Assembly: GCF_012027305.1 (NCBI RefSeq)
Contig: NZ_SNUF01000003.1
Span: 62,001 to 126,000, forward strand
Length of the DNA stretch: 64,000 nucleotides
Source of the DNA: Thermococcus sp. MAR1
Lineage (GTDB): Archaea; Methanobacteriota_B; Thermococci; Thermococcales; Thermococcaceae
Direction of reading: 5' to 3'
Shown here: piece by piece, positions 13,104 through 57,636 of the stretch
Numbering within the stretch: the first letter of the stretch is position 1
Layout: each line of letters begins with the position of its first letter
The notes under the pieces: model-generated
What the model was told of the DNA's origin: nothing
The model's database searches: none
What the model saw: the letters and a program-made list of their open reading frames with translations, nothing else
Position numbers and translations under genes: made by a program

Positions 13104-13196
13104 ACCTCTACCAGCATACCAGTAAAGTTCGCTGGGAAGTTTACCAGTATGGTGGTACGATTTTGATGAAAAGTTTGCCAGTATGGTGGTAAACTT
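13104..13196 (+). promoter_or_regulatory. Three phased palindromic boxes and TATA upstream of the DUF4143 ATPase
   Basis: Three 26-base boxes occur at 13104-13129 (inverted orientation, degenerate), 13137-13162 and 13171-13196. The core GTATGGTGGTA is shared by the second and third. The third box is nearly palindromic, with arms AAGTTTGCCA and TGGTAAACTT. Box centres are 33-34 bases apart, about three helical turns. The right arm of the last box runs into the likely TATA (AAACTTTATA, 13191-13200), so a bound protein would block the promoter. The ATPase itself or another factor could bind; that is inference. Confidence 0.7.
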
Positions 13197-13223: not shown

Positions 13224-14534
13224 ATGAACGTTGAGGAACTTAAGAGAGTATTGGCCGATCAGTGGGATACCCTGAGCAGGAAGCTTGAGCGGGAGAACAT
13301 CGTCGGGAGAGAACTGAAGGGGAGGATCGTTGCTAACTTCAGCCCAACGGCTCACATAATAACCGGGCCGAGGCGCTCCGGAAAATCCGTTCTCTCGGCG
13401 ACCCTTCCCGGCAGGCCCCTCTATGTAAACTTTGAGGATCCTGCGATGGCGGGTTTCGCGATTGGGGACTATAGGAGGCTTATGCAGGCAGGTTACGAGC
13501 TTTTTGGTCAGTTTGATTACGTGGTTCTTGACGAGGTTCAGGAAGTCGAGGGCTGGGAGAGGATGGTTTCGGTTCTTAGGGACGACTATCCAACAGTCGT
13601 TACCGGGAGCAATGCCCGGCTTCTTTCACGGGAGTTCGCAACGTATCTGACTGGAAGATACCTGAGCTATACACTCCTGCCGTTTTCGTTCAGGGAGTTT
13701 TTAACGTACCGGAAAATTGAGCCGGATGTTAAGACAACGAGGGACGAGGCTCTGATAAAGAGGGCCCTAACGGAGTACATCGAGCGCGGTGGCTTCCCAG
13801 AGGCTCTGCACTTCGGCAGGGAGTACCTCATAAATCTCTACAACGATATCATCACGAGGGATGTCATAGTCCGCTATGGCGTTAGAAACGTCCGTGAGCT
13901 GAAGGAGGTCGCCTTCTACCTCTTCTCGAACTTCGCCGGACGATTTACATACAGCAAGACAAAGAACGCCCTCGGAATCGGCAACATCGAGACGGTGAAG
14001 AACTACGTTGAGTACCTTGAGTCCGCCTACCTGATTTTTGAGCTTCCCAAGTTCTCCTTCAAGCCCAAAGAGGTCGTGAGGAGCGATAAGAAGGTCTACG
14101 CAGTTGACACGGGAATGCTCAATGCGGTCCTTCCAAAGGTTTCGGAAAACATCGGTAGGCTCATGGAGAATGCAGTCTTTCTTGAACTCCTGCGGTTCAA
14201 ATATTACAGGAGACCCGGCCTTGAACTCTACCATTATCGGGACACCAGGGGCGAGGTGGACTTTGTTGTTAGGGATAAAGAGGAGACCGAACTCATACAG
14301 GTTACGTATGCCTCGGGTGAGGACGAGGTAGCTTCAAGGGAAGTGGAGAACCTTTTCAGGGTTATGAAACTGTTCCGCGTGAAAACTGGGACGCTCGTGA
14401 CGTGGGACTACTCCGGTGAGATAAGGCGAGACAACCTAACCGTTAAGGCTGTTCCGCTCTGGAGGTGGCTTTTAAATTTTCGCGTCAACCTTTTTAATCC
14501 CAAACGCAACTTTCAACAGGTGAATGCCAATTGA
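13224..14534 (+). CDS. Archaeal AAA+ ATPase with DUF4143 domain
   Basis: A 436-residue ATPase of the AAA_14/DUF4143 group. The P-loop GPRRSGKS is at residues 48-55, Walker B is YVVLDEVQEV, and the sensor-like TGSNARLLS follows. The C-terminal half carries the DUF4143 region with a PD-(D/E)XK-like core (LYHYRDTRGEVDFVV, then ELIQVTYA). Such families are abundant and variable in Thermococcales; their function is unknown and they may be mobile or defence-related. The ATG at 13224 lies about 25 bases after the TATA, so the message is nearly leaderless. A paralogue of the same architecture is at 55694-56872. Confidence 0.85.
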   Translation: MNVEELKRVLADQWDTLSRKLERENIVGRELKGRIVANFSPTAHIITGPRRSGKSVLSATLPGRPLYVNFEDPAMAGFAIGDYRRLMQAGYELFGQFDYVVLDEVQEVEGWERMVSVLRDDYPTVVTGSNARLLSREFATYLTGRYLSYTLLPFSFREFLTYRKIEPDVKTTRDEALIKRALTEYIERGGFPEALHFGREYLINLYNDIITRDVIVRYGVRNVRELKEVAFYLFSNFAGRFTYSKTKNALGIGNIETVKNYVEYLESAYLIFELPKFSFKPKEVVRSDKKVYAVDTGMLNAVLPKVSENIGRLMENAVFLELLRFKYYRRPGLELYHYRDTRGEVDFVVRDKEETELIQVTYASGEDEVASREVENLFRVMKLFRVKTGTLVTWDYSGEIRRDNLTVKAVPLWRWLLNFRVNLFNPKRNFQQVNAN

Positions 14535-54129: not shown

Positions 54130-55020
54130 ATGAGGACGCCCAGCGTTTACGTGGCCGAGGAGCTGATGCCGTTTCTGAGAGCCAAGATAGCCGAGAGGCT
54201 CTACCGAGAGGGCATGAAGCAGTCCCAGATAGCCGAGTACCTCGGCATAACCCAGGCGATGGTCAGCAAGTACCTCTCAGGCAGGTACAAGGTTCCTCCC
54301 GAGGATGTGGTCCAGAGGCTGGAGGATATTGCCAACGAGGTGTCCAAGTTCATTCTCTTCGGGGGACGCCGTGAGGATGCCGTCCTTCTCGTGGCGAGGA
54401 GACTCTTCGAACTTTTCCAGAGCGGCTTCCTGTGCAGGTTTTACGCTGAATATGCTGGAGTGGGCGAGGACTCGTGCAGGTCGCTCTTCTCTGTAACACA
54501 GGGAAGGAGGGAAATACTTGAGGTTCTGAACATGGCTCTCAGCGAACTGATCAAAAACGAGAGGTTCCCGGAGCTCATCCCAGAGGTCAGGAGCAACTTT
54601 GCGTACTCCCTCCCATCCCCGCGGAGCATCGAGGACGTTGCGGCGATTCCTGGGAGGATAACGGCCGTCAAGGGAAAGGCCTTTGCTCTGCCGCCGGAGT
54701 TCGGTGCCAGTGAGTTCATTGCCAGAATACTCCTCAGGCTCGCAGGTATCAGACCCGAGGTACGGAGCGTTCTCAACATCAGGTACGGCCGCGACATAGA
54801 ATCCGCCCTGACTGAGGCCGGGTTCAAGATTGGGAAGGTTAAAACCGGTGGACTGAGCGAAGAGGAGGCCGTGAGGGCTATAGCCGACGTCTTCAGGCAG
54901 GATGCCTACGACGCAGTCGTTGACGTGGGCGGCCTTGGGGTCGAACCGCTGGTCTATATATTCGGCGAGACGCCTTTCGACGTCGTTGAGAAGCTCAAAA
55001 GGCTGGTGGGGAGCCTTTGA
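54130..55020 (+). CDS. thiR: ThiR-type regulator: HTH plus ThiN domain
   Basis: A 296-residue protein with an N-terminal Xre-type helix-turn-helix (MKQSQIAEYLGITQAMVSKY, about residues 28-47) and a C-terminal ThiN domain (VLNIRYGRDIESALTEAGFK, then DAYDAVVDVGGLGVEPLVYI). In archaea ThiN fused to this kind of HTH senses thiamine phosphate and represses thiamine synthesis and uptake genes. This arrangement strongly matches that family. It overlaps the next gene, a VanZ-like protein, and the YjbQ gene follows, so a thiamine-related operon is likely. Confidence 0.88.
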   Translation: MRTPSVYVAEELMPFLRAKIAERLYREGMKQSQIAEYLGITQAMVSKYLSGRYKVPPEDVVQRLEDIANEVSKFILFGGRREDAVLLVARRLFELFQSGFLCRFYAEYAGVGEDSCRSLFSVTQGRREILEVLNMALSELIKNERFPELIPEVRSNFAYSLPSPRSIEDVAAIPGRITAVKGKAFALPPEFGASEFIARILLRLAGIRPEVRSVLNIRYGRDIESALTEAGFKIGKVKTGGLSEEEAVRAIADVFRQDAYDAVVDVGGLGVEPLVYIFGETPFDVVEKLKRLVGSL

Positions 55021-55343
55021 GGAGATTTCTCTTCCTCTACCTGCTCCTTCTTCTGTTTCTGAACCTGACGCCGAGGGTTCCGTCATCGCCCGTAGCCAAC
55101 GGGGATAAGCTGGCTCATCTATTTGAATTCGCGATCCTGGGCTTTCTCGGATGGCGTTTGTGGACCTACATGCTCCCGTTGCCGGTTCTCCTGGAGTTTC
55201 TTCAGCTCTTCGTTCCGGGGAGAACGTTCTCCTTCGCTGACATAGGCGCAAACCTAATAGGCTTCACCCTTGGACTCATTGCGGGGTGGTTGCATGAAGG
55301 TTCTCACGAGGGAACTGAGGTTTCAAACGAAGGGGGAGATTGA
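55017..55343 (+). CDS. VanZ-like membrane protein
   Basis: A 108-residue protein with three or four membrane segments. RFLFLYLLLLLFLNLTPR opens the VanZ-like pattern, GDKLAHLFEFAILGFLGW is the conserved K-x3-H-x3-F segment, and RTFSFADIGANLIGFTLGL is typical of the family. VanZ homologues have no proven function outside glycopeptide resistance. The start is a TTG overlapping the thiR stop (TTGA), and the end overlaps the yjbQ start by 50 bases. Confidence 0.8.
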   Translation: MRRFLFLYLLLLLFLNLTPRVPSSPVANGDKLAHLFEFAILGFLGWRLWTYMLPLPVLLEFLQLFVPGRTFSFADIGANLIGFTLGLIAGWLHEGSHEGTEVSNEGGD

Positions 55344-55707
55344 CCTTGTGGATATAACCCGTGAGGTGGAGAGAATCGTCGAGGAATCCGGAATCGAGAA
55401 CGGCCAGGTTCTGGTATTCGTTCCCGGAGCGACGGGCGCGATAGTCACGATAGAGCACGAGTCCGGCCTTCTTGAGGACTTCAAGCGGGCTTTGAAGGAG
55501 CTTATCCCAAAGGGCAAAGGCTACCTCCACGACAGGATAGACGACAACGCCCACAGCCACCTTCGTGCCACGCTCCTCGGCGCGAGCGAGTGCTTCCCCG
55601 TCGTTGACGGCAGGCTCATGCGCGGAACCTGGCAGCAGATTTTCTTCGTCGAGCTGGACGTGATACCGAGGCACAGGCGCGTTATAGTGCAGCTCATGGG
55701 AGAATAA
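55294..55707 (+). CDS. YjbQ/UPF0047 family protein (secondary thiamine-phosphate synthase)
   Basis: A 137-residue protein of the YjbQ/UPF0047 family, some bacterial members of which show weak thiamine-phosphate synthase activity. FVPGATGAIVTIEHESGL, DDNAHSHLRATLLGAS and GTWQQIFFVELDVIPRHRRV are the conserved segments, including a His-x-His-type metal site. The ATG at 55294 follows GGGGTGGT inside the VanZ gene. The clustering with thiR supports a role near thiamine metabolism. Confidence 0.88.
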   Translation: MKVLTRELRFQTKGEIDLVDITREVERIVEESGIENGQVLVFVPGATGAIVTIEHESGLLEDFKRALKELIPKGKGYLHDRIDDNAHSHLRATLLGASECFPVVDGRLMRGTWQQIFFVELDVIPRHRRVIVQLMGE

Positions 55708-56872
55708 TGTCGAGGAGGAAAAAGGGCACGTCCTCCTTTTCGAGCACGATAACGTTTTTTGGGTATCTCCTGTGGGCTTTCCCGGCCTTCACTTCAACTT
55801 TTAAGTCTCCAACTGTTGCATCGACTTCGTAGGAATTCCTGTAATAGTAAACTTTCCCGAACCTCCGGTATAGGTGCTCTTGGATGACCCATTCGTACAG
55901 CGCCTCCTCCCTAAGCTCTGCTCCGCTCCAAGTGGAGAAAAGCCTTGCCAAAAGCGGGTCGCGGAAGAAAAACTTCTTCTCCCGCTTGTAGAGCACCTGC
56001 TCTCCCTGCCTGAGGTACGCTATTCCGAGAATGTACAGCTCGACAAAGAACTCTATGTAATCCTGAACCACCTTGTAGGAGTAGCCCGAGGTCATCCCAG
56101 CCAACGCTCTGAAGCTCGTAGCTGAAGGGGCGCTCCTTATTATTGCTGAAAAAGTCTCTTTCGCTATCTCCAGACTCTTTCCGAAGCGAACGAGTTCTCC
56201 GATATATGCCCCGAGAAGGTCGTCCATTGGGAGGCCGTTTATTGCTCCCGGAAAGCCTCCTGTTTTTAGGTACTTCTCAAAGAGTTTCAGCGTCTTTTCT
56301 CCCTGAAGTCCTGGCCTTTTCAGACCCATCACTTCGACGTATTCCTTGAAAGAGAGCGGCATGACATCAATGGTATTTCCCTTCCCTCTTCTTCCGGGGA
56401 ACAGCTCTATGTCTCGCTTCACCTTTAGGGAGCTTGACCCAGTAACCGTGACAACGTCGTTCTCTAAGAGACCAGCATCAATGAGTGGCTTTAGGCCGCG
56501 CCACCATCCGTCAAGTGATGAGGCCTCGTCGAGGAAGATGTACCCCCTTCTGATTCTTTCCCTTTCCTTCAGCTCATGAAATTCTCTCAGCAGGGCTGAA
56601 AGCTCTCTATAGTCTGGGAGGATTTCAACGTTGATGTAGAGAACTGCCTCTGGAGGGTTCTTCTTGAGGAGATCCTGGATGAGGAGCTTTATACCCGTCG
56701 TCTTCCCAACCTGTCTCGGGCCGAGGACGAAGTTGAGCGAGAATGGCTCAAGTGAGAGCTTACCAATCCATTTTGGCCACCAGCGGATTCTCTGCTCTCT
56801 CCAGCGCCTCGCGTGGTAGTCCTCCTTTCCCTCCCACCAGGGGTTCATGTAAGTCAAATCCCCGAGCCTCAT
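55694..56872 (-). CDS. Archaeal AAA+ ATPase with DUF4143 domain, second copy
   Basis: A 392-residue ATPase with P-loop GPRQVGKT (residues 51-58), Walker B YIFLDEASSL and a sensor region VTVTGSSSLKVKRD. The C-terminal DUF4143 part ends in a PD-(D/E)XK-like core (YYRNSYEVDATVGDLKVEVK). Its layout parallels the ATPase at 13224-14534, though the sequences differ clearly. Its last 14 bases overlap the end of yjbQ. The promoter carries two palindromes flanking TTTATAAA. Confidence 0.85.
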   Translation of the reverse strand: MRLGDLTYMNPWWEGKEDYHARRWREQRIRWWPKWIGKLSLEPFSLNFVLGPRQVGKTTGIKLLIQDLLKKNPPEAVLYINVEILPDYRELSALLREFHELKERERIRRGYIFLDEASSLDGWWRGLKPLIDAGLLENDVVTVTGSSSLKVKRDIELFPGRRGKGNTIDVMPLSFKEYVEVMGLKRPGLQGEKTLKLFEKYLKTGGFPGAINGLPMDDLLGAYIGELVRFGKSLEIAKETFSAIIRSAPSATSFRALAGMTSGYSYKVVQDYIEFFVELYILGIAYLRQGEQVLYKREKKFFFRDPLLARLFSTWSGAELREEALYEWVIQEHLYRRFGKVYYYRNSYEVDATVGDLKVEVKAGKAHRRYPKNVIVLEKEDVPFFLLDIILP

Positions 56873-56881
56873 ACCAACACC

Positions 56882-56934
56882 TGAGAAGTTGTAGTTCTCA
56901 AAGATTTATAAAGGTTGAGAAGTGTGGGTTCTCA
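56882..56934 (-). promoter_or_regulatory. Two palindromes flanking the TATA box of the DUF4143 ATPase gene
   Basis: TGAGAA N7 TTCTCA occurs twice, at 56882-56900 and 56916-56934, with centres exactly 34 bases apart. TTTATAAA (56905-56912) lies between them and is the likely TATA for the gene starting at 56872. The first palindrome would cover the transcript start and the second the upstream BRE region. The boxes differ in sequence from those at 13104-13196 but share the spacing. Autoregulation is a possible explanation. Confidence 0.7.
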
Positions 56935-56952: not shown

Positions 56953-57522
56953 CTAAATCTTGATCGCCACTTCTGCTTTGCCCTTGTTGAGCTGGAGCAG
57001 GAAGAGCTTTTTGCTGTAGTCTCTGTACCTAAGGTACGAGATTATCCAGAGGATGAAGCTGAGGAATGCGGCTATTGAGAATACGGCCGTTGAAATCGTC
57101 GTGAGCCAGTGCGGTGGAGCGTAGAACATCATAATCGAGTTAATAATACCAAGTAGAATCCAGTATGCAAGAAAGTTCACGAATAGTGCATAGGCCCTGT
57201 TCACGGCGAGCTCATGAGCTTTAATGAGCTTTTCTTCTTCAGACAGGTGGGAATAACCAGAACCGGAATAACATTTGGAGAGGATTTCGGCCGGATCCAT
57301 GCCTTCGATGAAGTCCCCTAACGACTCGATCAACCCTAGTACCATTAAACCCCCATATGCCACAGCGAGGCTTGCTATTGCAACTTTGGTACCACCGTAT
57401 ATATCCATCATCTCATTTCCATAAATACCCAGAGGAATGACTGCCCCAATAGCTGCAAAAAATATAAGAATCCCACTCTCCTCCAGATCAAATTTTGAAA
57501 TCTGGTTGCATAAGTTGCCCAT
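56953..57522 (-). CDS. Membrane protein of unknown function
   Basis: A 189-residue protein with about four hydrophobic segments (ILIFFAAIGAVIPLGIYG, VAIASLAVAYGGLMVLGLI, YALFVNFLAYWILLGIINSI, TAVFSIAAFLSFILWIISYL), short loops, and a basic end (LRYRDYSKKLFLLQLNKGKA). The ATG at 57522 (MGNLCNQISKFDLEE) follows the strong GGAGGGAGGAGGG; an upstream open frame to 57669 is ignored because it crosses the promoter region. No family is recognised. Confidence 0.68.
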   Translation of the reverse strand: MGNLCNQISKFDLEESGILIFFAAIGAVIPLGIYGNEMMDIYGGTKVAIASLAVAYGGLMVLGLIESLGDFIEGMDPAEILSKCYSGSGYSHLSEEEKLIKAHELAVNRAYALFVNFLAYWILLGIINSIMMFYAPPHWLTTISTAVFSIAAFLSFILWIISYLRYRDYSKKLFLLQLNKGKAEVAIKI

Positions 57523-57530
57523 TCCCTCCT

Positions 57531-57568
57531 CCCTCCGGGTATTTATAGATTTCCCTCCTCCCGGAGGG
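57531..57568. repeat. Inverted and direct repeats in the promoter of the membrane protein gene
   Basis: CCCTCCGGG (57531-57539) is inverted as CCCGGAGGG (57560-57568), enclosing a TATA-like TATTTATAGATT. In addition TTCCCTCCTCCC occurs twice, at 57522-57533 and 57551-57562. Together they form a compact element in front of the gene starting at 57522, possibly an operator. Confidence 0.45.
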
Positions 57569-57636
57569 TATAATACTGGAGGGCAAACGTAACTCGGTCG
57601 TGGCCGGGAGAAGAGGTGAAAAGGGGGTAATAACCC

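Follow-up and report, generated by a model that had tools for sequence, protein, structure and literature searches.

Palindrome pairs at constant pitch around the promoters of a Thermococcus ATPase family: a probable autoregulatory operator

A palindrome pair at an ATPase promoter

The window analysed here is a stretch of 64,000 nucleotides from Thermococcus sp. MAR1 (NCBI RefSeq assembly GCF_012027305.1, contig NZ_SNUF01000003.1, positions 62,001 to 126,000). The genome comprises 2.02 Mb in 53 contigs, is 98.7% complete, and its named close relatives are Thermococcus. Two ATPase genes preceded by palindromic boxes are found in the window, one on each strand (Table 1). Directly 5' of the minus-strand gene lie two exact copies of TGAGAA-N7-TTCTCA, the proximal one reading TGAGAAGTTGTAGTTCTCA and the distal one TGAGAAGTGTGGGTTCTCA, with centres at 56891 and 56925, 34 bp apart. 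The spacer between them contains TTTATAAA, whose distance from the start codon we take to fit an archaeal promoter, and the proximal box probably lies over the transcription start. These twin palindromes, their 34-base centre spacing and the TTTATAAA between them had been described in an earlier, sequence-only reading of this DNA, and the coordinates given there proved exact. Two boxes on either side of TTTATAAA at the ATPase's own gene are the arrangement expected of an autoregulatory operator. The UPF0047 gene is bordered by a gene for a ThiN-HTH protein, probably a thiamine regulator (54130-55020), and a membrane-protein gene just upstream of the boxes (56953-57528, minus strand) has its own repeated G+C-rich palindromic element, CCCTCCGGGTATTTATAGATTTCCCTCCTCCCGGAGGGTATAATA, at 57526-57575, an element that its homologs carry at 29-bp spacing.

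Table 1. Positions of the ATPase genes, their predicted domains and the associated boxes within the window.
Feature	Position	Strand	Remark
Proximal box, TGAGAA-N7-TTCTCA	56882-56900		Between TATA box and start codon; kept in orthologs
TTTATAAA, probable TATA box of the ATPase promoter	56905-56912	-	In the 15-bp spacer between the boxes; conserved in orthologs
Distal box, TGAGAA-N7-TTCTCA	56916-56934		5' of the TATA box; centre 34 bp from that of the proximal box
AAA_14 ATPase gene (392 aa), preceded by the boxes	55694-56872	-	Its stop overlaps the 3' end of UPF0047
AAA ATPase core, residues 44-180	56333-56743	-	Walker A GPRQVGKT, Walker B FLDE
Predicted winged helix-turn-helix (wHTH), residues 233-302	55967-56176	-	From AlphaFold2 model, mean pLDDT 91
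Predicted recognition helix, residues 265-277	56042-56080	-	From the model and from co-variation with the boxes
PD-(D/E)xK nuclease-like domain, residues 340-386	55715-55855	-	E348-x-D350 and E359-x-K361 present
UPF0047 gene	55270-55707	+	3' end is the insertion or empty site of the TGAGAA-clade ATPase in other species
W1 ATPase gene (AAA_14 and DUF4143)	13224-14534	+	Same pitch rule, different box
W1 box array, GTTTACCAGTATGGTGGTAAAC type, 34-bp pitch	13104-13196		Nine other genomes have the array without the gene

The sequence-only reading had named shuffling, control promoters, a genome-wide search for the boxes and their co-variation with the protein as checks. In 40 dinucleotide shuffles of the sequence upstream, the score of the TGAGAA pair was never reached. 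The 12-base motif has three exact sites in the whole genome, namely the two boxes and one site that was discarded as a candidate box, as it lies inside a coding region.

The same reading had called this gene a second DUF4143 ATPase gene, and on this point it has to be corrected. The protein matches AAA_14 (PF13173; E 1.5e-23, 83.7 bits against a gathering cut-off of 27) and no other family at E <= 0.001, with invariant Walker A and B motifs; it does not reach the gathering score of DUF4143 (PF13635) and is absent from the seven DUF4143 matches of its own genome. The ATPase encoded at the other locus, here called W1, does meet that gathering score, with 97.4 bits. No match was found in NCBIfam, no meaningful match in a sequence search of solved structures, and no close relative among the plasmids and phages searched. 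An AlphaFold2 model of the TGAGAA-clade protein (mean pLDDT 91, pTM 0.88) predicts an AAA core, a wHTH and a nuclease-like domain; its best structural matches are the Orc1/Cdc6-type proteins 2qby and 1w5t, at whole-chain TM-scores of 0.27-0.44. The PD-(D/E)xK motif can be read in the TGAGAA clade as E348-x-D350 followed by E359-V-K361. In W1 and related clades, which form one large branch of the family, VQV[TS] stands in place of the ExK motif and the box geometry is unchanged, so that the link between boxes and family does not lie in catalysis by the nuclease domain.

Constant pitch and clade-specific spelling

The TGAGAA boxes are conserved well beyond the window. In the protein cluster to which this ATPase belongs, all 32 members have a strong pair at exactly 34 bp. 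Thermococcus orthologs with 78-95% identity, drawn from 61 genomes of the genus, keep both boxes at exactly this distance with a few arm mismatches at most, and the seven inner bases of each box vary among them. Orthologs of other genera (74-83% identical) retain TGAGAA boxes in unrelated neighbourhoods, and at 60-63% identity the boxes of relatives are still related and equally spaced. The ATPase gene of Pyrococcus-like and other genera moves together with its own boxes into unrelated surroundings.

The survey was extended to 197 unique ATPase genes of the family, grouped into 27 clusters at 58% identity by single linkage, which put L085 and L088, of a different box type, together with the TTTGCA clade. 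Upstream regions were searched freely for two matching palindromes with a spacing of 22-49 bp and an inner gap of 3-11 bp, and a pair was called strong when it scored at least 20 of 24. Strong pairs were found at 129 of the 197 genes, in 19 of the 27 clusters; all 129 lie at a pitch of 32-35 bp, 98 of them at 34. No strong pair was detected by this free search in 8 of the 27 clusters, and single or weak boxes can be seen by eye in some of these. We conclude that most genes of this ATPase family in Thermococcus carry their own palindrome pair around the promoter, about 34 bases apart and spelled differently in each clade. Most clades have a TATA-like sequence between their boxes.

The spelling is TTTGCA-N7-TGCAAA in one clade (three copies), and TTGATA-N6-TATCAA, TGTACT-N6-AGTACA and TGAAAG-N4-CTTTCA (four or more copies) in others, all at the common pitch. 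For W1 it is TTTACCAGTAT..GGTAAA, matched at 13140-13159 and 13174-13193 with a spacing of 34 and a weaker third copy upstream; that the W1 boxes differ from TGAGAA in sequence and share its geometry had been noticed from the sequence alone and holds. ATPase members from a further taxonomic family within the class (L361-L363) show CTCATT-N3-AATGAG with a spacing of 33 bp. One ATPase clade (L095-L113) is transcribed divergently from an archaeal CCA-adding-enzyme-like gene with which it shares a promoter region, so that its TTGATA boxes flank both promoters.

Chance, or the A+T-rich composition of promoters, might account for such pairs, and short imperfect ones do occur in some control promoters. 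This explanation, to which we give next to no credence, is refuted by the shuffles, the controls and the common pitch. Among 112 genus homologs, 82 score higher than all 40 of their shuffles, every strong pair lies at the 32-35-bp pitch, and the boxes are conserved across genera. Only 21 of 361 control (non-ATPase) upstream regions score at least 20, and 12 of these share a promoter with an ATPase gene or turned out to be one; none of the nine true controls has its pair at 32-35 bp, six of them being a single orthologous membrane-protein family with a 29-bp repeat.

A single genome holds several paralogs, each of which has a box of its own. The pair patterns of the clades TTTGCA, TACCAG and TGAAAG have no match in the control regions of 61 genomes. 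In a Mantel comparison of four protein regions across 19 clusters, some of which hold one to three genes, half-site similarity tracks the identity of the recognition helix (rho 0.27, p 0.002), a correlation of modest strength. The relation to the whole wHTH is weak (p 0.03), and neither the AAA domain (p 0.32) nor the nuclease domain (p 0.23) shows a correlation across the 19 clusters. Clusters C07 and C16, which are 30% identical overall, have TGAAAG-N4-CTTTCA in common and carry the helices VSHPTVREY and LNHVTAREY, respectively; C10 and C13 have DVHTV in common and the half-sites AACCACA and AATCACA. Such agreement between site and helix is expected of an operator. The earlier proposal that each ATPase recognises its own box stands as regards a clade-specific box kept across species in a constant geometry, and it gains from the co-variation with the helix; recognition as such would be a prediction from these sequences. 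The evidence that the ATPase itself reads the boxes is good but not decisive, given the number of regions tested (four) and the small size of some clusters.

We consider it probable that the palindrome pair is the operator of the ATPase's own gene, bound through the winged helix and controlling its own promoter. The ATPase would bind both boxes by its winged helices, most likely as two dimers of one oligomer, and by occupying a box to either side of the TATA box it would control, most likely repress, transcription of its own gene. Repression is the usual outcome of such a promoter layout in archaea, and activation could be the result instead. The 32-35-bp pitch would be fixed by the shape of the oligomer and the spelling of the box by the recognition helix, which would allow paralogs to act in one cell without cross-talk. 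A constant pitch with changing spelling is to be expected of a conserved oligomer whose recognition helix varies.

Box arrays without the gene

Box loci of the family are flanked by housekeeping genes (UPF0047, argF, an RsmB/NOP-like methyltransferase gene, serA, fumarase and cca), and at four loci the arrays persist where the ATPase gene is absent. Such persistence, with continued constraint in the absence of the cognate ATPase, is not predicted by autoregulation alone. At the 3' end of UPF0047, 15 genomes have the ATPase, 22 have the box pair only, two have the pair with an ATPase further on, and the remaining genomes have degenerate boxes or none. On the UPF0047 tree, occupied and empty sites are intermixed; in occupied genomes ATPase distances show no correlation with UPF0047 distances (rho 0.13), though the two trees have several groups in common.

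The empty pairs change slowly in their arms. At the UPF0047 locus the arms changed 0.79 times per site, the inner bases 5.0 times and third codon positions of UPF0047 5.2 times; in empty-only clades, the largest of which includes two genomes with an ATPase nearby, the corresponding figures are 0.62, 2.79 and 2.89. At the argF locus 10 empty arrays, most of which have an identical junction sequence, diverge by 3.3% in their arms. Their inner bases differ by 43% and their spacers by 31%, and the gene next to them shows 33% at third codon positions. The arms of empty arrays at these two loci thus evolve several-fold slower than neutral sites and are constrained. That gene-less arrays are simple scars of loss was set aside as a full explanation, as slow arm change does not fit loss alone. 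The earlier description of ATPase and box pair as a self-contained module is too strict, given the four loci with arrays but no gene and the constraint on the arms at the two that were measured.

At the serA-fumarase locus, the site of W1 in the window, the empty alleles have another aspect. Two of the nine genomes that have the array without the ATPase keep its last codons beside the last box and two keep leader sequence, remnants which indicate that these alleles arose by deletion and on account of which a pure insertion origin was discarded for this locus. Several of the empty serA boxes look degraded, and the constraint figures given above cover the UPF0047 and argF loci. In the TTTGCA clade, two related genomes, that of the window included, keep the first two boxes only. 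The window's own genome carries an empty TTTGCA-type pair (L303, G000:C1:937098-937148) between TiaS-like and deoxyhypusine synthase genes, a site at which other species have a clade-B ATPase, and an empty TGAAAG-N4-CTTTCA array of three perfect boxes (L420, G000:C1:642262-642341) adjoining the gene of an RsmB/NOP-like methyltransferase, a position that the ATPase occupies in the related genome G002.

Three further explanations bear on these empty arrays. They might be landing sites, recognised as in homing by a mobile ATPase-wHTH-nuclease gene, with gene-less arrays as empty targets. The interleaving of states at UPF0047 and the constraint on empty arms are compatible with this, as is the TGAG that borders the ATPase insert at UPF0047 on either side. 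The argF locus adds a clean presence/absence difference between sister species, G006 and G039, whose flanks are 91-94% identical and which differ by an ATPase-bearing insert against 2 bp; G000 is likewise empty and its relative G002 occupied. However, homing destroys or alters the recognition site upon insertion, whereas the boxes are intact in occupied and empty alleles alike. The unit holds no integrase or transposase, the W1 branch has the same arrays without the ExK motif, other genera have gene and boxes in unrelated places, and the remnants in some serA alleles point to deletion. We consider landing sites unlikely.

A different host DNA-binding protein might instead read the boxes and regulate the flanking housekeeping genes, the ATPase merely borrowing the promoter. 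Arrays that outlast the ATPase with constrained arms, and an empty argF-locus array directly 5' of the methyltransferase start, would suit such a factor. Yet the box differs at each locus, so that a separate factor would be needed for each; box similarity tracks the ATPase's own recognition helix, and the ATPase gene takes its boxes along to new neighbourhoods. Regulation by such a host protein therefore appears quite improbable. Finally, the palindromes could function at the 3' ends of flanking genes, as hairpins in the RNA or as terminators, and in two examples the empty pair at the UPF0047 stop can indeed fold (z-scores -2.0 and -3.5). A hairpin would not require two copies with equal arms, however, and promoters in many contexts preserve the spacing around a TATA box; in several empty alleles arm changes break the pairing, and an RNA family search gave no Rfam match. 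A role in RNA seems to us very improbable.

With an autoregulatory operator as the preferred reading, the persistence of empty arrays may mean that they have their own function, that the gene returns often, that occupied and empty alleles exchange array sequence, or that losses were recent and independent. One could tentatively go further and regard the arrays as lasting chromosomal elements, under selection even without the cognate ATPase, which would then be the optional occupant of fixed addresses. Conceivable causes of this selection, put forward with the same reserve, are an ATPase gene that leaves and re-enters the same sites or an array that protects against an incoming ATPase gene. Fixed addresses, if real, would constitute a gene-and-address system of a kind not described before.

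Relation to known systems

As autoregulatory operators the boxes would be a variant of something known, and the empty arrays that persist may turn out to go beyond it. Controller proteins of restriction-modification and toxin-antitoxin systems act on a private operator beside their gene, with specificity that diverges between systems. Unlike in such operons, no second gene or toxin-antitoxin pair was found beside the boxed ATPases, and their arrays outlive the gene. No conserved partner gene, antitoxin or methyltransferase, was seen in the near flanks of the ATPase, which differ between orthologs. This, together with the large ExK-less branch of unchanged box geometry, lends no support to the restriction-like or toxin-antitoxin function that the sequence-only reading had suggested.

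The predicted operator resembles that of Stf76 of pSSVx, a winged-helix protein reported to bind its own promoter at two sites (PMC4027180). It differs from Stf76 in its presumed reader, an AAA ATPase that also has a nuclease-like domain, and in that a whole family keeps one pitch, each member with its own spelling. Like Orc1/Cdc6 proteins, the modelled ATPase has an AAA domain followed by a winged helix predicted to bind DNA; unlike them, it has an additional nuclease-like domain, gives low TM-scores, and is associated with boxes at promoters and not at origins.

Both ATPases of the window match the PADLOC profile PDC-S01 (W1 with E 6.5e-107, the TGAGAA-clade protein with E 4e-28), a profile match and not a typed assignment, as these PADLOC rows carry no curated cut-off. 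According to the available part of its description, PDC-S01 is a single-gene phage defence candidate in PADLOC-DB in which an ATPase is fused to a PD-(D/E)xK domain; it ranks as the fourth most common defence across prokaryotes, with validation of most PDCs pending (PMC12988326). The same text gives the family tens of thousands of members, counts it among the commonest defence candidates, of unknown function, and mentions no operator or box array (PMC12988326). On the strength of these profile matches the ATPase family is suspected to be a candidate for virus defence. A search of the open-licence literature that included DUF4143, COG1373, archaeal ATPase autoregulation and Thermococcales palindromes returned no prior description of the boxes.

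A private operator of constant pitch would offer a handle on the DNA that each ATPase reads, on its oligomerisation and on the timing with which its gene is switched. The matched recognition helices and half-sites form a natural set for learning the specificity of archaeal winged helices. Other archaeal ATPase types of the window's own genome (L015, L017, L022, L034 and L037), proteins of 380-480 aa with AAA_14 matches and without a close match to the boxed family, have short inverted repeats at the start codon in a different layout.
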